A stretch of 52,352 nt of DNA from positions 1 through 52,352 of IMG/VR virus record IMGVR_UViG_3300023110_001238. One strand, written 5' to 3'. A model generated the notes under the pieces. That model did not search any database, was not told where the DNA came from, and was given only the letters and a program-made list of their open reading frames with translations. Position numbers and translations under genes: made by a program. Positions 3,180 through 48,187 of this stretch are shown here, in pieces. The DNA comes from a virus. Each line of letters starts with the position of its first letter. The stretch's first letter is position 1.

Positions 3180-4189
3180 TGTTAGGTAATTCTCATTTTT
3201 ATAATCGAACAATACGAAAAGTCATTGTAGCTTTTGGTACAATGTTTAATGACATTGTTTTAAAAAGATATACAGCTGATGGTAGTGCATCAAAAGAATC
3301 TTGGAAAGTTCCATTATCTTATGGTGCAAAAGAAAAATATATTACACTAATTACATCCAATCCAGATTTTACCAAATCAGTTCAAACTGTTGTGCCTCGT
3401 ATATCATTTGATTTAACAGGTATGGACTATGATGCAAGTCGAAAACAATTATCAACATTACAAAACTTTTCTGCTAATACAAATACTGCAATTAAAACAC
3501 AATATGTTCCAATACCATATAACTTTGAATTTTCTTTATCTATTTTTGTAAGAAACCAAGAAGATGGCACTCAAATATTAGAACAAATATTACCATTCTT
3601 TACACCTGATTTTAATGTAACTGTTGATTTTGTTCCAACAATGGACCAACATTATGATATGCCTGTTATATTAAATTCAGTAACACCAAGTGTAGAATAT
3701 GAAGGTGATGGTTCTTCAACAAGATTGATTGTTTGGGATTTAAACTTTACTGCAAAAGGCTACATATGGCCTCCAGTCAAAGAAGGTAAATATATTCGCC
3801 AAGCAAATACCAATCTGTATATTGAGACCGCTAGTAGAACATCACAAAAAGTTTATGTTGATTATACAAACGGTTCTGGATATTTTGATGATGAAGAAAC
3901 CATATTTGTAACAACAACGACAACGGGTGAAAGTAGAGATATTACCGGAGACTTAGCATACTTTAGTAATTCAAACACCGGTATTGTTGTGGTGAATAAT
4001 CTAAATAGTTTATTAAAAGCGAATGATATCATTGTGGGTGCATCATCAAATGCAAGCTACAATGTGTCAAGTGTTGATAGTGAGCCGTTAAAAACGGTTA
4101 TTATTATAACAACACCGGATCCAACATCTGCTAATGCAAACGATGACTTTGGATTCAGTGAAACAATTACAGAATGGCCATTTACATAA
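3179..4189 (+). CDS. gp15: Tail sheath stabiliser and completion protein gp15
   Basis: A 336-residue homologue of T4 gp15, the hexamer that caps the tail tube and sheath and contacts the neck. The N-terminus (MLGNSHFYNRTIRKVIVAFG, then MFNDIVLKRY and VPLSYGAKEKYI) is the conserved start of this family. It is longer than the T4 protein (272 residues); the extra C-terminal part after residue 210 is a Thr/Ser/Asn-rich region that looks like an added beta domain. The ATG overlaps the gp14 stop, and its own stop overlaps the gp16 start. Confidence 0.88.
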   Translation: MLGNSHFYNRTIRKVIVAFGTMFNDIVLKRYTADGSASKESWKVPLSYGAKEKYITLITSNPDFTKSVQTVVPRISFDLTGMDYDASRKQLSTLQNFSANTNTAIKTQYVPIPYNFEFSLSIFVRNQEDGTQILEQILPFFTPDFNVTVDFVPTMDQHYDMPVILNSVTPSVEYEGDGSSTRLIVWDLNFTAKGYIWPPVKEGKYIRQANTNLYIETASRTSQKVYVDYTNGSGYFDDEETIFVTTTTTGESRDITGDLAYFSNSNTGIVVVNNLNSLLKANDIIVGASSNASYNVSSVDSEPLKTVIIITTPDPTSANANDDFGFSETITEWPFT

Positions 4190-4631: not shown

Positions 4632-5066
4632 ATGGAAACTTTAATTAATTTACTTAAAAAAGTATTAGCAGATACATTTACATTCTATCTTAAGTCACAT
4701 AATTTTCATTGGAATGTAGAAGGCTCTAATTTTCCACAATACCATGAATTCTATGGTAATGTGTATGAAGATTTACATGGTGCTGTTGATGTTATTGCTG
4801 AACAAATACGAGCATTAGATGCTTATGCACCAGGTACAATGGCTGAGTTTTTAGATATGACTGAAATAGAAGAACAGCCTGAAAGATTAGATGGTGTTGC
4901 TATGGCTAATGAATTAGCTGGTGATAATGACAAGGTAATCAAAACATTAGAATTGTGTGATAAACTTGCAAACCAATTTGAACAGATTGGTCTTTCAAAC
5001 TTTTTACAAGATAGAATAGACAAACATAAAAAACTAGGTTGGATGCTTCGTAGTATCTCAAAATAA
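4632..5066 (+). CDS. dps: Dps-family ferritin-like DNA-protection protein
   Basis: A 144-residue Dps protein. The family forms dodecameric shells that oxidise and store iron using hydrogen peroxide and often bind DNA. Visible features are SHNFHWNVEG, the helix NFPQYHEFYGNVYEDLHGA, and DVIAEQIRALDAYAPGT. The ferroxidase ligands H26, H38, D53 and E57 are present with the spacing of E. coli Dps H51, H63, D78 and E82; the position equivalent to E. coli D67 is Gly. There is no long basic N-terminal tail. It sits between the two terminase genes with gaps of 8 and 3 bases, so it is a late gene expressed with the packaging motor. Confidence 0.9.
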   Translation: METLINLLKKVLADTFTFYLKSHNFHWNVEGSNFPQYHEFYGNVYEDLHGAVDVIAEQIRALDAYAPGTMAEFLDMTEIEEQPERLDGVAMANELAGDNDKVIKTLELCDKLANQFEQIGLSNFLQDRIDKHKKLGWMLRSISK

Positions 5067-22649: not shown

Positions 22650-23236
22650 GTGAAGATAATATTTTAGTTATAAACACGGAAGATTCTGTAAAATTACCAG
22701 AAAAAGAAGTCAAGCTTGAACCGTTACCATTATATGCTGATACTTTACCAATGTTATCAGAAGTGATGCCCCATTATGATACAAAACAATTGCCAAATCA
22801 ATCTATGTCAAATCTTGTCAAACAACTTAAAATGACAATGAAACAGTTTGGTGGCATTGGCCTGTCAGCTAATCAGTGTAATGTTCGTGCAAGGGTTTTT
22901 ATTATTGGCACCGAAGACAAACAACTCGTTTGTATCAATCCAAAAGTTATTAAAGAATCGGCAGAAGTGGAAAAAAGTGGTGAAGGTTGCCTCTCTTTTC
23001 CCGGTTTATATCTTAAAATAGAAAGACCATTAAGCATTGATGTAGAATTTGCAGATGAATCGGGTAAGGTGCATAATGAAACACTCACCGATTTGGTAGC
23101 AAGATGTTTTCTACACGAACTCGACCATATGAACGGAGTTAAATTTACAAGCCATGTTGGTCCAGTTTCATTAAAAATGGCTGAACAAAAACGACAAAAG
23201 ATGATTAAAAAAATACAGAGACAGAAAAAACGATGA
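22646..23236 (+). CDS. def: Peptide deformylase
   Basis: A 196-residue peptide deformylase, the metalloenzyme that removes the formyl group from new proteins. All three motifs are present: GGIGLSANQ (69-77), EGCLS (113-117, metal ligand C115) and HELDH (157-161, two His ligands and the catalytic Glu). The first 50 residues are an unusual extension before the deformylase fold, and the C-terminus is Lys/Arg-rich. Phage deformylases are known from marine phages. It overlaps gene 46 and the following gene by four bases each, so it is translated with the recombination operon. Confidence 0.93.
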   Translation: MSEDNILVINTEDSVKLPEKEVKLEPLPLYADTLPMLSEVMPHYDTKQLPNQSMSNLVKQLKMTMKQFGGIGLSANQCNVRARVFIIGTEDKQLVCINPKVIKESAEVEKSGEGCLSFPGLYLKIERPLSIDVEFADESGKVHNETLTDLVARCFLHELDHMNGVKFTSHVGPVSLKMAEQKRQKMIKKIQRQKKR

Positions 23237-24516
23237 GTTACGCTTGGGACCCAAAAGATGATGTAGAAACACAATGGCAAAAATGGTCAGATGCTAATCC
23301 TGTGGCTAAAATGCCTGAAATTGATTTTGAAGAAGTTAAGCAAGAGACCATTAAAGACCTAGAATTTGTTTCTCAAATGGATGTAAAAGAATACACACTC
23401 TATCAGAAATGGTGTGAGGTGCAAGAAAAATATCCATTTGTGACCGTCAATGATTTATGGGAAGGCGAAACTAAAGTATTAGAAGATGAGAAACAACGCC
23501 GTGCCATACAAGAAGTCAAAACTAATATTTGGAATCCAGCTGATGTAGATACTTACATGAAATTGGAACCAGAACTCATTTATGCGAACAAGCAAGATGA
23601 TTTACCTGAACTCTGGAATGTAATACGAACATTCTCATCAACAATGAAAAACAATTCTAATATTGGTCGTAATCTTAATTTTGTGGTAAGAGATAAACCG
23701 ACCAAACAGTATCTTGGTGTTATTTGTATTTCCTCAGACTTTTTAGACTTAACACCAAGAGATAACTTTATTGGTTGGAGTAGAGAACTTAAAACGCAAG
23801 GATCAATGATTAACCACACAGCAATTGGATCCACGATTGTTCCTCTCCAACCTTTAGGTTATAATTACACAGGTGGTAAATTGTTAGCCTTATTATGTTT
23901 AGACGATAAGATACAACAATTATGGCAGGAGTTATATGGCGACAAACTTGTTGGTGTAACCACCACATCGCTCTACGGTAAGACAAAGACAGGAGGTCTA
24001 TCACAATACGATAGACTATCACATTGGAAGAAAATGGGTTTTACAGCTGGTTCGGTTGCATTTGAACCAACAAGAAAAACAAGATATCGAATTAATCATT
24101 GGTTAAAGAAAAACCATACAAGAAAATATTTTGATTGGTATGTTGCAAAGAAACCAAGTGGTCAGCCACATAAACGAGACCATAAAAACAGGTCTTTACA
24201 GTTTGCCTATTCTCAAATGAAATTAGATAAGACACTGATTCGTTCAGAACACGCTAGAGGTATTTACTTCTCACCTTTATATGATAACACAGCAGAGTTT
24301 CTCCGTGGTGATATAACAGAAGACAAATTGGTCAAATCGTTTGACACATCAACTGAAGCTCTTGTAAATATATGGAAAGAGAAGTATGCAACCAAGAGGA
24401 TAACCAATCTGAAAGAACAAGGAAGAGTGTCCAATGAGACTTTATTCTATGATGACTTGATTACCTTGTCTTGGGACGAAACTAAAGAAAAATATCTAAC
24501 ACAGGTTGGTCGGTAA
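23233..24516 (+). CDS. DruA/DUF4338-like protein, copy 1
   Basis: A 427-residue protein. Residues 160-250 have the pattern I associate with DUF4338, the family that includes the DruA protein of the Druantia anti-phage system: LGVICISSDF (161-170), RDNFIGW (176-182), VPLQPLGYNYTGGKLLALL (203-221) and VTTTSLYG (242-249). The N-terminal 150 residues are acidic and helical; the C-terminal part is basic. A paralogue with the same blocks is at 41003. The biochemical activity is unknown to me. It overlaps the deformylase gene by four bases and ends the operon. Confidence 0.6.
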   Translation: MSYAWDPKDDVETQWQKWSDANPVAKMPEIDFEEVKQETIKDLEFVSQMDVKEYTLYQKWCEVQEKYPFVTVNDLWEGETKVLEDEKQRRAIQEVKTNIWNPADVDTYMKLEPELIYANKQDDLPELWNVIRTFSSTMKNNSNIGRNLNFVVRDKPTKQYLGVICISSDFLDLTPRDNFIGWSRELKTQGSMINHTAIGSTIVPLQPLGYNYTGGKLLALLCLDDKIQQLWQELYGDKLVGVTTTSLYGKTKTGGLSQYDRLSHWKKMGFTAGSVAFEPTRKTRYRINHWLKKNHTRKYFDWYVAKKPSGQPHKRDHKNRSLQFAYSQMKLDKTLIRSEHARGIYFSPLYDNTAEFLRGDITEDKLVKSFDTSTEALVNIWKEKYATKRITNLKEQGRVSNETLFYDDLITLSWDETKEKYLTQVGR

Positions 24517-32363: not shown

Positions 32364-32396
32364 AGCGAGATGCCTAACTAGGGTCTCGCTTTTTTA
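32364..32396 (+). terminator. Intrinsic terminator after regA
   Basis: AGCGAGA pairs with TCTCGCT (32364-32370 with 32384-32390); an inner CCT/AGG pairing shortens the loop, and a run of T follows. It would end early transcription of the clamp operon. Confidence 0.85.
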
Positions 32397-32422
32397 ATCT
32401 TGCTTAATAAGGAGAATATAAC

Positions 32423-32911
32423 ATGACATTAGCAAATCGCTTTTCATTTACACCTTTATATCACTCAACACTTGGGTTTGAAAATTTATTTAATGAAGTT
32501 GAGAGAATGTTAGAAGCTACAACAGAAAAAACAAATCACTCTTTTCCACCACACAATATCGTTAAAGTTGATGACTATCATTATGTCGTTGAACTAGCGG
32601 TTGCTGGTTATTCAAAAGATGAAATTGACATTACTGTTGATGACGGACATTTAATTGTAAAGGGCAACAAAGATGAGAAAAATGCTGATTTGGCAGATAT
32701 CACATATCTACACAAAGGCATTGGTCTCAGAGCTTTCACAAAGACATTGAAAATTGCTGACACAGTAGAAGTTCATGGTGCCGAATATAAAGATGGTATT
32801 TTACGAATTGGTTTAGAGAATGTAATTCCTGAAAATAAAAAACCTCGTAAAATTGAAATTGGTAAAGAACTTAAACTACACAAGCAAGAGCTTTTGAAAG
32901 AAACTAAATGA
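32423..32911 (+). CDS. hsp20: Hsp20 small heat shock protein
   Basis: A 162-residue small heat shock protein of the IbpA type. The alpha-crystallin domain runs from about NIVKVDDYHYVVELAVAGYS to GILRIGLE, with the conserved GLENVIPENKKPRKIEI tail. Hsp20 genes are common in marine T4-like phages, especially cyanophages. The gene has a late promoter (32354) and its own terminator, so it is probably made late, perhaps to help fold virion proteins. Confidence 0.93.
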   Translation: MTLANRFSFTPLYHSTLGFENLFNEVERMLEATTEKTNHSFPPHNIVKVDDYHYVVELAVAGYSKDEIDITVDDGHLIVKGNKDEKNADLADITYLHKGIGLRAFTKTLKIADTVEVHGAEYKDGILRIGLENVIPENKKPRKIEIGKELKLHKQELLKETK

Positions 32912-33972: not shown

Positions 33973-34015
33973 TTTTAATTAATGATTTTCTCTATTGCTT
34001 TTAGCTGAGTTTTGG

Positions 34016-34130
34016 TATAATATAGTAGCGTCAAATAAATTATGTTATTTGATGAATCTCAAGGCAGACTTTGTAGAAATACTCTCTGCTGAGCTGATTA
34101 GATTTTAAAACCTAATCAAGGAGAAACACT
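34016..34130 (+). promoter_or_regulatory. pqqA promoter and structured leader
   Basis: TATAAT at 34016-34021 is a good -10 box; the best -35 candidate TTGCTT (33995) has a short 15-base spacer. The predicted leader of about 100 bases has three hairpins: TCAAATAA/TTATTTGA (34031-34052), GCAGA/TCTGC with an inner GTA-GAAA-TAC (34064-34089), and GATTAG/CTAATC (34096-34117). The last ends right at the AAGGAG site (34118-34123), seven bases before the ATG. The long leader for a 23-residue peptide suggests regulation; I do not recognise a known riboswitch class. Bases 33973-34015 hold nothing else I can identify. Confidence 0.55.
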
Positions 34131-34202
34131 ATGTGGACTAAACCAGCTGCAACAGAAATGCGTTTTGGCTTCGAAGTTACAATGTATGTAATGAACAAGT
34201 AA
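34131..34202 (+). CDS. pqqA: PqqA, pyrroloquinoline quinone precursor peptide
   Basis: A 23-residue peptide with the sequence MWTKPAATEMRFGFEVTMYV followed by MNK. It aligns without gaps with bacterial PqqA of 23 residues such as the Klebsiella peptide, with the MW-KPA start, R11, G13 and the motif E15-V-T-x-Y19. Glu15 and Tyr19 are the residues that PqqE cross-links and that become the PQQ cofactor. AAGGAG lies seven bases before the ATG. It stands alone with its own promoter, leader and terminator; no pqqB, C, D or E is in this window, so host enzymes would process it. PQQ serves methanol and glucose dehydrogenases. Confidence 0.93.
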   Translation: MWTKPAATEMRFGFEVTMYVMNK

Positions 34203-34231
34203 TCATTTTCTGTTAAGAAAAAAAGTAATAG

Positions 34232-34258
34232 AGGGAACTTCGGTTCCCTTTATTTTTT
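34232..34258 (+). terminator. Intrinsic terminator after pqqA
   Basis: AGGGAAC pairs with GTTCCCT around a TTCG tetraloop, followed by TTATTTTTT. It makes pqqA a single-gene transcription unit. Confidence 0.93.
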
Positions 34259-34270
34259 GGAGTTTACTAT

Positions 34271-39649: not shown

Positions 39650-41006
39650 AGAATACACTAGAAAGGTTTTACCGTTTGTAAAACAAGATTACTTTTCAGA
39701 CAACACTGAAAAGATAGTTTTCCAAGAAATTTTTGACTTCATTCAGAAGTTCAAAAATCCACCAACACATGAAGCTCTTGTAATTAATTTTACAGAGAAA
39801 AAAGATTTATCAGAAACACAAGTTGGTGATTCAATTGAATTACTCAAAGAAATCCATCTGGCTAAAGATGAACCAACCGACACAAACTGGTTAATTGGTG
39901 AAACTGAAAAGTTTTGCCAAGATAAAGCCATCTATAACGCCATCATGGATTCTGTATCAATCCTAGATAACAAACAACAAGGCAAAACAAAAGGTGAGAT
40001 ACCAAAATTATTGTCTGACGCTCTTGGTGTTTCATTTGATAGTCATGTTGGCCATGATTACACGGAAGATTCTGATACACGATTCGATTCTTATCATAAA
40101 GTAGAATCCAGAATTCGTTTTGATTTGGACTTATTCAACAAAATTACCAAAGGCGGTCTGCCAGTTAAAACTTTGAACATCGCACTTGCTGGTACCGGTG
40201 TTGGTAAATCTTTGTTTATGTGTCATATGGCGGCTGGTTGTTTATCACAAGGCCATAATGTTTTGTATATCACATTAGAAATGGCCGAAGAAAAGATTGC
40301 TGAAAGAATTGATGCTAATCTACTTGATGTATCTATGACAGAGCTTCACACCATGAGTAAAAAAGATTATAATCGTAAGTTTGAAATGCTTAGAAGTAAA
40401 ACTCATGGCAAATTAATCATCAAAGAATATCCAACTGCGGCTGCTTCAGCTTTACATTTCAGGTCTTTGATTAATGAACTTGCATTAAAGAAAACATTTA
40501 AACCTGATATTATCTTTATTGATTATCTAAACATATGCACATCAGCAAGGGTAAGACCTGGTTCAAATGTAAATACTTATTCATACATCAAGTCTATCGC
40601 TGAAGAGTTAAGAGGCCTGGCAGTCGAGGCAAATGTTCCAATCGTATCAGCAACACAAACAACAAGGTCTGGTTTTACCAATTCGGATCCAGGTCTTGAA
40701 GATACCTCAGAATCATTTGGTCTTCCAGCGACCGCTGACTTTATGTTTGCCTTAATATCAAATGAAGAACTTGATAACCTTGGTCAAATAATGATTAAAC
40801 AATTGAAGAATCGTTATTCTGACCCAAACTATTACAAACGCTTTGTCGTTGGTATCGATAGAGGTAAAATGAGATTGTATGATGCTGAATCATCTGCTCA
40901 GATTGGTCTTGCTGATGTTGGTAATGATGACGATGACAAACCAATCAACACATTTGGTGACAGAGAAAACAAATTCAATAAATCATTTGATGACTTTAAA
41001 GTATGA
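39603..41006 (+). CDS. gp41: Replicative helicase gp41 (DnaB-like)
   Basis: A 467-residue DnaB-family helicase (T4 gp41 is 475). The N-terminal helical domain begins ESTILKNLIYNEEYTRKVLP; Walker A is GTGVGKS within NIALAGTGVGKSLFMCHM, and Walker B is IIFIDYLNIC. The loop IVSATQTTRSG and the arginine finger region KNRYSDPNYYKRFVVGIDR follow. It unwinds DNA at the fork with a gp61 primase that is not in this window. ATG 39603 overlaps the preceding gene. Confidence 0.95.
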   Translation: MNRLESTILKNLIYNEEYTRKVLPFVKQDYFSDNTEKIVFQEIFDFIQKFKNPPTHEALVINFTEKKDLSETQVGDSIELLKEIHLAKDEPTDTNWLIGETEKFCQDKAIYNAIMDSVSILDNKQQGKTKGEIPKLLSDALGVSFDSHVGHDYTEDSDTRFDSYHKVESRIRFDLDLFNKITKGGLPVKTLNIALAGTGVGKSLFMCHMAAGCLSQGHNVLYITLEMAEEKIAERIDANLLDVSMTELHTMSKKDYNRKFEMLRSKTHGKLIIKEYPTAAASALHFRSLINELALKKTFKPDIIFIDYLNICTSARVRPGSNVNTYSYIKSIAEELRGLAVEANVPIVSATQTTRSGFTNSDPGLEDTSESFGLPATADFMFALISNEELDNLGQIMIKQLKNRYSDPNYYKRFVVGIDRGKMRLYDAESSAQIGLADVGNDDDDKPINTFGDRENKFNKSFDDFKV

Positions 41007-42121
41007 AGCTAACTAAAGACCAAGCACTTCATTGTGCCCAAGCCTATTCTAATTACTTTGACCGATTTGAACGCATTGATGACTATATTCGTGACCAAAA
41101 ACTAAACTCATTATCAGATAGACCGTTTGTTCTGCCTGGTATGGGACCAGAAGAAGATTTATTTTCCGATTTTACAATTCATCCACATGATATGGATTTT
41201 GAGATTGTAGAATTGCCACAAGAAAATTGGGATATCTATCTCAATATGATTTCATCTCACTCTAATATGACAAGTATTCCCGGTCGCTGTTTAAGATTGG
41301 CCGTTTTGGAAAAACATACAAAGAAGTGGGTTGGGTTTATACGCCTTGGTTCTCCAGTAATTAACATGAAACCAAGAAATGAAATGCTAGGCCAGGTTTT
41401 CACCCAAACCAAAGAAGGAGCTGAAGCATTTAATAAAACCTCAATAATGGGCTTTGTGATTGTGCCATCTCAGCCTTTTGGTTTTAATTATCTTGGCGGT
41501 AAATTGCTGGCTGCCATTTGTTGTTCACATTGGGTTCGTGAAAGGCTAAATGCCAAATATAATATGAATACCTGTTTGTTTGAAACAACAAGTTTATATG
41601 GAAGTTCCAAGGCGTCCTCACAATACGATGGTATGAAGCCATATCTTCGTTTCAAAGGTCTAACAGATTCAGACTTTTTACCAATGATGCACGGCAAACC
41701 ATATGATGACCTTAAATCATATGTTGAAGAAGCCATTGGTGATGAAATTGTTCCGTTAGATGCCTCATCACGCAAACTTAAAATATCAAACAAGATAATA
41801 TCACTCACTAAAGTTGCACTCAAAGGCGAACCTGAATATGATAAGTTTATGAAAACTATTCAGAACGCTTTGAATCTAACTGAAAAGAAAAGATATTATG
41901 CTTCAAATTATGGTTTCAGTAACTTTGTTGATGTTGTTACAGGTAAGACTGATAAGTTAATAGAAGACAAAGAGAACTATGATAAACACCATTTAGAAAA
42001 CATTGTAGAATGGTGGAAGAATAAAGCAGCTAACCGATATGATAAGTTAGTAGAAGAACAAAGACTTAGAACTGATATAGAAGTTTGGACTGGCGATAAA
42101 GAGCTTGACATAATACGGTAA
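41003..42121 (+). CDS. DruA/DUF4338-like protein, copy 2
   Basis: A 372-residue paralogue of the protein at 23233. Matching blocks are VGFIRLGSPVI (110-120), KPRNEMLG (123-130), VPSQPFGFNYLGGKLLAAI (154-172) and FETTSLYGSS (193-202). Its N-terminal 80 residues and C-terminal part differ from copy 1. The pattern is the same as in DUF4338 proteins such as DruA. The ATG overlaps the gene 41 stop (ATGA), suggesting a role linked to replication or DNA handling. Activity is unknown to me. Confidence 0.6.
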   Translation: MKLTKDQALHCAQAYSNYFDRFERIDDYIRDQKLNSLSDRPFVLPGMGPEEDLFSDFTIHPHDMDFEIVELPQENWDIYLNMISSHSNMTSIPGRCLRLAVLEKHTKKWVGFIRLGSPVINMKPRNEMLGQVFTQTKEGAEAFNKTSIMGFVIVPSQPFGFNYLGGKLLAAICCSHWVRERLNAKYNMNTCLFETTSLYGSSKASSQYDGMKPYLRFKGLTDSDFLPMMHGKPYDDLKSYVEEAIGDEIVPLDASSRKLKISNKIISLTKVALKGEPEYDKFMKTIQNALNLTEKKRYYASNYGFSNFVDVVTGKTDKLIEDKENYDKHHLENIVEWWKNKAANRYDKLVEEQRLRTDIEVWTGDKELDIIR

Positions 42122-47050: not shown

Positions 47051-48187
47051 ATGGCAGAAGTTATTAAACTAAAAACCGCTCTAGGTTCATTGAGTAAAGA
47101 AACAAAGAAAGATTATGTAGTTGATAATCAAATTAAAGGCCGTAGTTTCTCAAGTAATCATGCTAAGTTACTGAAACACATGGACAGATTGATTGAATTA
47201 CAAGAAGGTAAAAGACCAAGACCTGTGATGTTTCATATGTCACCATGTAATCCTTGTAATCTAACTTGTTCATTCTGCTGTTTTGCCAATCGTGCCATGA
47301 AAGAGATGCTTACTGTTGAACAAATGAAATCAGCGATTGACCAATTTTGGGACCTAGGCGTGAGAGGCATGGAATTTACGGGTGGTGGCGAACCAACATT
47401 ACATCCAAAACTTGATGAAGTCATTGAATATGCCTACAATAAAGGTTTCAAAATGGGTATCTGTACCAATGGTTCTAAATTAAGAAAGATTAAGAATTGG
47501 CACATGATGTCATGGGTTCGTTTAGGAATGTATTCATTTGATGAAAAGAAACCCTATGAATATCACCTTGATGTGTTTGATGGTTTAGATATAGAAATCA
47601 CAGCCGCATATGTGTGGGACGGTGCCACAGACACCTCCACGAATCCAAATATCACAGGCGAATGGTTAGATGACCATGCGAAGAAACTTGCAACCAACGA
47701 ATATAAAGAAGAAAACTTTATGAAGATGTTGAAGTGGGTTGAAGACCATAAAATACCATGTCGTATTGCTTTCAATGCCATCAAAGACACCAAAATTGTG
47801 GCTCAAGACATTGAAACCATTAAAGGTTTAATTGCTAAACATGAAGCGGAACATGGTAAATTACAATACGCTTTCTTATCTGATTTTAATTTTAAGGGCG
47901 AAAGACGAAACAATCACTGTTATATGCACACAGTTAAGCCTTGTGTCTTTACAGATGGTAATGTATATGTTTGTCCATCTGCTGAGTTAGCACCAGAAAA
48001 TAATTATGCAGTTAATGATGAATTTAAATTGTGTGATATTGAAGGCATTACAGATTTTTATAATTCACAAGTAGGTGGTGCAGATGAATTTAGAAGACAC
48101 CATGATTGTTCATTCTGTAAGTATGCTTATCAAAACGAATTGATTGATGATGTATTGATGCCAACTAAACATAATGATTTTGCTTAG
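47051..48187 (+). CDS. Radical SAM protein with SPASM-like C-terminus
   Basis: A 378-residue radical SAM enzyme. The cluster motif C69-N-L-T-C73-S-F-C76 lies in a 66-77 stretch with two extra Cys; the SAM-binding FTGGGEPTLHPK follows. The C-terminal part has CYMHTVKPCVFTDGNVYVCP and CSFCKYAY, a Cys pattern like SPASM auxiliary clusters. Such enzymes modify peptides or sugars. Its cluster (two glycosyltransferases, sulfotransferase, methyltransferases) favours sugar chemistry. It starts three bases after the previous gene and ends overlapping the GTG of the next. Confidence 0.82.
   Translation: MAEVIKLKTALGSLSKETKKDYVVDNQIKGRSFSSNHAKLLKHMDRLIELQEGKRPRPVMFHMSPCNPCNLTCSFCCFANRAMKEMLTVEQMKSAIDQFWDLGVRGMEFTGGGEPTLHPKLDEVIEYAYNKGFKMGICTNGSKLRKIKNWHMMSWVRLGMYSFDEKKPYEYHLDVFDGLDIEITAAYVWDGATDTSTNPNITGEWLDDHAKKLATNEYKEENFMKMLKWVEDHKIPCRIAFNAIKDTKIVAQDIETIKGLIAKHEAEHGKLQYAFLSDFNFKGERRNNHCYMHTVKPCVFTDGNVYVCPSAELAPENNYAVNDEFKLCDIEGITDFYNSQVGGADEFRRHHDCSFCKYAYQNELIDDVLMPTKHNDFA

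Follow-up and report, generated by a model that had tools for sequence, protein, structure and literature searches.

A phage-borne pqqA gene with a conserved upstream box as a probable self-contained unit for PQQ precursor supply in methylotrophic hosts

Introduction

Pyrroloquinoline quinone (PQQ) is derived from the peptide PqqA, whose residues E15 and Y19 are turned into the cofactor. PqqA is processed by PqqD, PqqE, PqqB and PqqC, one PqqA is consumed per PQQ in the established pathway, and methanol-eating bacteria need PQQ to oxidise methanol. Methylophilales rank among the major oxidisers of methanol in coastal and fresh water. Cyanophages carry auxiliary metabolic genes of the psbA type, by which the phage supplies a quickly consumed part of the main energy pathway of its host.

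In Methylophilaceae, the PQQ biosynthesis genes belong to the core genome, and 3-12 copies of pqqA usually accompany a single pqqBCDE set (PMC4109929). A PQQ-producing methylotroph has five pqqA genes, three of which stand alone (PMC9851590), and in an OM43 isolate xoxF is the most abundant transcript (PMC5120137). Viral PqqA has been known since 2020 from a single contig of Lake Baikal (VP_266), attributed to a T4-like phage of Methylophilaceae (PMC7678222), and a 2026 reservoir study lists viral pqqA, pqqE and pqqD (PMC13188868). Three methylophage papers (PMC9004378, PMC10580990 and PMC8024684) make no mention of pqqA; the original P19250A and Venkman papers lie outside this set.

Here we describe a pqqA gene in IMG/VR record IMGVR_UViG_3300023110_001238, all 52,352 nucleotides of which were analysed (hereafter the window). 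A viral PqqA had been reported before (PMC7678222). Like VP_266, the window is T4-like, and pqqA is followed by a gene related to the glycerol-3-phosphate cytidylyltransferase-like gene of that study; unlike that study, which dealt with one contig, described no control elements and reported a methanol dehydrogenase, we found no methanol dehydrogenase in the pqqA phage records tested (50 + 23 records). The locus also resembles the stand-alone pqqA genes of methylotrophs (PMC4109929, PMC9851590) in being an extra copy, away from pqqBCDE, that could provide more precursor, except that it is carried by a phage. As proposed below, it would share with cyanophage psbA-type genes the supply of a quickly consumed energy-pathway component, although its product is a 23-residue cofactor precursor, neither an enzyme nor a reaction-centre protein.

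Results

Genomic context and identity of the phage PqqA peptide

The window is a linear record, a fragment of a T4-like myovirus. It contains structural genes (neck, tail-sheath stabiliser, both terminase subunits, sheath, portal and Gp23 capsid) as well as replication and regulation genes (clamp, clamp loader, RegA, family B polymerase, UvsX and a DnaB-type helicase). The presence of gp15, gp17, gp18, gp20, gp23, a gp43-type polymerase, UvsX, gp44/45/62 and RegA identifies a genuine phage genome, and cultured phages also encode pqqA. The terminase and polymerase are closest to those of cyanophage-type T4 relatives (50-55% identity). The closest relatives of the window (contigs L038, L140 and L047) keep the gene order regA, hsp20, M15 peptidase, small ORF, pqqA and cytidylyltransferase, with the polymerase next where the contig extends that far; other T4-like contigs have pqqA at different places, such as after gp23.

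Elsewhere in the window, a ROSE_3 RNA thermometer (32364-32428; 52.5 bits, gathering threshold 43) lies directly 5' of the phage hsp20 gene (32423-32911), a Dps/ferritin-like protein is encoded between the small and large terminase genes (4632-5066), and two proteins (23233-24516 and 41003-42121) match the DruA domain of Druantia defence. A radical SAM protein of unknown type is encoded near a methyltransferase gene (47051-48187); it was rejected as a PqqE candidate, with 29.5 bits against a PqqE cut-off of 381.

The pqqA locus comprises the following features:

33978..33997, plus strand: pqqA box (ATTAATGATTTTCTCTATTG), conserved promoter element at about -49 to -35 (EM motif, 21.6 bits)
34016..34021, plus strand: -10 hexamer TATAAT, 38 nt after the box start (sequence, spacing)
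34032..34051, plus strand: leader hairpin 1, CAAATAA...TTATTTG (fold)
34058..34096, plus strand: conserved pqqA leader RNA element (covariation, IMG/VR scan and a covariance model score of 47.8 bits, the window itself being a training sequence)
34096..34117, plus strand: leader hairpin 3, GATTAG...CTAATC, just 5' of the ribosome-binding site (fold)
34118..34123, plus strand: Shine-Dalgarno sequence AAGGAG, 7 nt before the ATG (sequence)
34131..34202, plus strand: pqqA, 23-residue PQQ precursor peptide (translation, PqqA models, E15/Y19 conservation)
34232..34258, plus strand: intrinsic terminator, AGGGAACUUCGGUUCCCU followed by a T-rich tail (sequence, fold)

The open reading frame at 34131-34202 translates to MWTKPAATEMRFGFEVTMYVMNK, followed by a stop codon. 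The initial annotation had read this peptide as PqqA, and both curated models agree at about twice their cut-offs: Pfam PF08042 gives 40.2 bits (cut-off 21.1, E = 3.5e-11) over 19 of 19 model positions, with no score in any of 14 control genomes, and the NCBIfam equivalog TIGR02107 gives 40.4 bits (cut-off 20). E15 and Y19, which the annotation had also pointed out, are in register with those of PqqA, with three residues between the Glu and the Tyr. The phage peptide thus shares with bacterial PqqA its length, the W-T-K-P start, the G-F-E-V-T-M-Y core and the register of E15 and Y19, and differs in that its gene stands alone on a phage that has no pqqB-E and is served by a box, a leader and a terminator of its own. 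A comparison of the 23 residues with solved structures, by sequence, returned no match.

We then examined conservation among viral PqqA sequences. E15 and Y19 are kept in all 132 viral ORFs among the matches listed, a clean test given that residues 15, 16 and 19-23 were left free in the search. Across 111 distinct sequences among the matches listed, pN was 0.079 and pS 0.612, yielding a pN/pS of 0.129 that is biased downward because the retrieval pattern fixes many other residues; 27 distinct DNA sequences code for one and the same peptide. This ratio indicates that viral pqqA is maintained by selection, and it is well supported that the window gene is a real, selected PqqA. Its role as a substrate of PqqD/PqqE and its conversion to PQQ are predicted.

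Partner genes and host

A PqqE profile found no PqqE in 49 pqqA phage records, while a bacterial pqqABCDE record served as positive control, and pattern scans of IMG/VR, of limited reach, found no relatives of PqqE or PqqC. Many pqqA contigs are fragments, in which the absence of a gene is weak evidence. Since the sampled phages lack PqqE, the peptide would be useful only in a host that has pqqB-E. Moreover, all phage records that have both a named bacterial host and a peptide of the window type are Methylophilales phages. Both observations lend good support to the earlier proposal of a PQQ-making methylotrophic host; judged from its relatives, the window contig itself probably has such a host.

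A substrate encoded apart from its processing enzymes is also what would be expected of a decoy that occupies PqqD/PqqE and thereby reduces PQQ synthesis in the host or diverts it, or of a peptide that becomes another modified product, and a loss of PQQ would likewise alter the energy metabolism of the host. However, a decoy would have no need to keep E15 and Y19, invariant as they are, or the whole bacterial consensus, and the radical SAM protein encoded at 47051-48187 is not a PqqE. We therefore give this explanation a slim chance.

The pqqA box and promoter

A 20-bp motif with a consensus close to TMATGATTTTCNNTAK, the pqqA box, was obtained by expectation maximisation from 98 dereplicated upstream regions. 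It scores at least 10 bits in 81 of these 98 regions, compared to 17 of 958 control segments of these contigs, and nearly all sites point one way. In held-out loci the box was found in 21 of 24, compared to 9 of 453 controls. Outside training, P19250A and MEP301 score 20.3 and 19.9 bits, respectively; the scores for Melnitz, Venkman and MEP402 are 21.8, 12.3 and 11.4, and MEP401 reaches only 1.1. In the window, the box is the only site at up to 3 mismatches. The -10 hexamer most commonly starts 38-40 nt after the box start among pqqA loci, suggesting that the box stands in for the -35 element, and the transcript of the window gene is predicted to start at about 34028. A Shine-Dalgarno sequence is present at almost all pqqA loci, and the one in the window justifies the earlier description of a good ribosome-binding site. 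The occurrence of the box at the -35 position of most copies appears to be unreported, and the initial annotation had overlooked the control elements 5' of the gene.

Two scans of 2.9 million contigs were made with the box alone. The first, with one variant, placed pqqA 93-168 nt downstream in 45 of 46 cases (one of these 45 genes being cut by the contig end), and the second, with another variant, lay upstream of pqqA in 25 of 26. That such scans land before pqqA argues strongly that box and gene belong together. Common descent of the cassette contributes to box conservation, yet the box has stayed constant where the sequences around it have diverged.

Its high conservation and -35 position could also mean that the box serves the phage itself, as a sponge of binding sites or a generic phage promoter behind which pqqA merely happens to lie. 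A generic promoter would repeat throughout the phage genome, whereas 54 sites of at least 15 bits lie close to pqqA, against 6 in other parts of 1.70 Mb of sequence, and each box-only scan gave a single exception; the chance of this reading is slimmer still. The box resembles the Fur core TAATGATAATCATTA, but most of its copies are asymmetric; Fur control would be a lead only.

Leader RNA and terminator

The region 34022-34262 folds with z = -3.46, and 78 predicted pqqA leaders fold better on average than their shuffles (mean z -1.35). In the window and related phages, the conserved leader element consists of CUCAA, a 6-bp stem (GGCAGA/UCUGCU), an internal loop, an upper stem (GUA-GAAA-UAC) and GANCUG. 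Among 18 distinct sequences, some of which were picked with a pairing filter that raises this score, 98% of cells pair, compared to 26-63% in slid controls, and 5 of the 6 pairs show two-sided changes. When IMG/VR was scanned for the element with no pairing requirement, it was found in 20 contigs: 18 times before an intact pqqA, once before a broken one and once where the contig end cuts the locus. The podoviruses MEP401 and MEP402 share it. This covarying hairpin, present in some copies and only before pqqA, appears to be unreported. Rfam gave no credible match for the leaders of the window and 12 other loci; a weak match to PhrS reflects the terminator and was rejected.

The gene had been credited with its own terminator, and indeed a GGGAAC-UUCG-GUUCCC hairpin is followed by TTTATTTTTT at 34232-34258. 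Terminator-like hairpins follow 34 of 96 pqqA loci, compared to 1 of 96 shuffles. Five other loci (L019, L081, L090, L159 and L165) have, downstream of the promoter region and ahead of pqqA, a perfect hairpin of the terminator kind with a run of 7-8 T, which may represent either an attenuator or the end of a preceding gene.

Distribution of viral pqqA

The initial annotation had called for a search of related phages and metaviromes, and pqqA proved to be present in both. A tblastn search of 50,697 phage records with the window peptide matched nine Methylophilales phage records (Venkman, P19250A, MEP301, MEP401, MEP402 and four Melnitz strains), which span several unrelated phage types, one spring podovirus, whose peptide is identical to that of the window, and two records of one Acinetobacter 'phage' entry. 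The latter (Acinetobacter phage MD-2021a, GenBank CAKLQF020000010.1, L127) was rejected as an example, as it consists of bacterial pqqABCDE and ppk DNA and looks mislabelled. Further Methylophilales phages named in the taxonomy (MEP431-434, HIM624-A, phiMB624-A and Venkman EXVC038S) were not among the matches, being either absent from the collection or devoid of pqqA.

As foreseen for so short a gene, pqqA escaped gene finders: because it has only 23 codons, it is unannotated in the nine methylophage records or overlaid by an opposite-strand 'hypothetical protein', a call that we verified directly in one Melnitz strain. Its presence in all nine methylophage records found appears to be unreported, as does its presence, with E15 and Y19 fixed, in at least 119 IMG/VR contigs (two pattern scans), including L151, a jumbo-phage contig of 356 kb that encodes a Gp23 capsid protein.

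By megablast, the only sequence common to Venkman and the spring podovirus is about 85 nt around pqqA, so the cassette moves. This mobility and the variable position of pqqA among T4-like phages would suit a selfish or neutral mini-gene taken from hosts and passed among phages with no benefit, which has the slimmest chance of all given the low pN/pS, the fixed E15 and Y19, the box and ribosome-binding site kept while the flanks diverge, and a presence in nine of nine methylophage records that neutrality would not lead one to expect.

In Melnitz EXVC044M (L126), pqqA lies between tRNA-Arg and tRNA-Leu and ends 10-15 nt before the latter. Near position 1144 of L147 (minus strand), pqqA is broken after residue 13 and its leader is intact, reflecting either decay or an assembly join. 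Another pqqA-carrying phage contig, L118, has a tandem pair of glutamine riboswitch aptamers (3696-3808, minus strand).

Discussion

We propose that the window carries a functional pqqA that probably acts as a self-contained unit, supplying precursor so that host PqqB-E can keep making PQQ during infection. Box, -10 hexamer, structured leader, strong ribosome-binding site, 23 codons and terminator would form a compact unit, read by host RNA polymerase together with a putative host regulator that recognises the box, and giving an mRNA of about 230 nt, presumably made early in infection. PqqD, PqqE, PqqB and PqqC, absent from the phage, would be contributed by the host and convert E15 and Y19 into PQQ. 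As one PqqA is used per PQQ, supply of the peptide would be the dosage-sensitive step and a natural target, and the phage would add one more copy to hosts that have 3-12 pqqA genes and one set of enzyme genes. The flow of PQQ to methanol dehydrogenase (XoxF) could thereby be sustained while host transcription shuts down. We infer that PqqA becomes limiting during infection, and it is plausible that the phage peptide raises PQQ and methanol oxidation at that time. A point against this model is that PQQ is an additive of the medium used for OM43 growth in one phage study (PMC9004378), so that uptake of PQQ is possible.

As to the control of the unit, the box may be, though we put this forward tentatively and at somewhat less than even chances, an operator bound by a so far undescribed regulator of the host, one that governs the supply of PQQ precursor in Methylophilaceae; diverse phages would have taken up pqqA units already wired in this way, with the covarying leader RNA adding post-transcriptional control in some. 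The presence of pqqA in all nine methylophage records found would mean that the control of PQQ supply is routine for phages, much as cyanophages manage photosynthesis. The box offers a handle for fishing out the regulator of PQQ synthesis, and both box and peptide can serve as markers of methylotroph phages in metagenomes.

About 17 of the 98 upstream regions have no box of at least 10 bits, and many of these lie among late genes and have a different PqqA type. A second group of viral pqqA genes that have no box (L003, L012, L016, L017, L043, L044, L064, L077, L091 and L110), most of which encode a different PqqA type, perhaps belongs to phages of other PQQ-making hosts.
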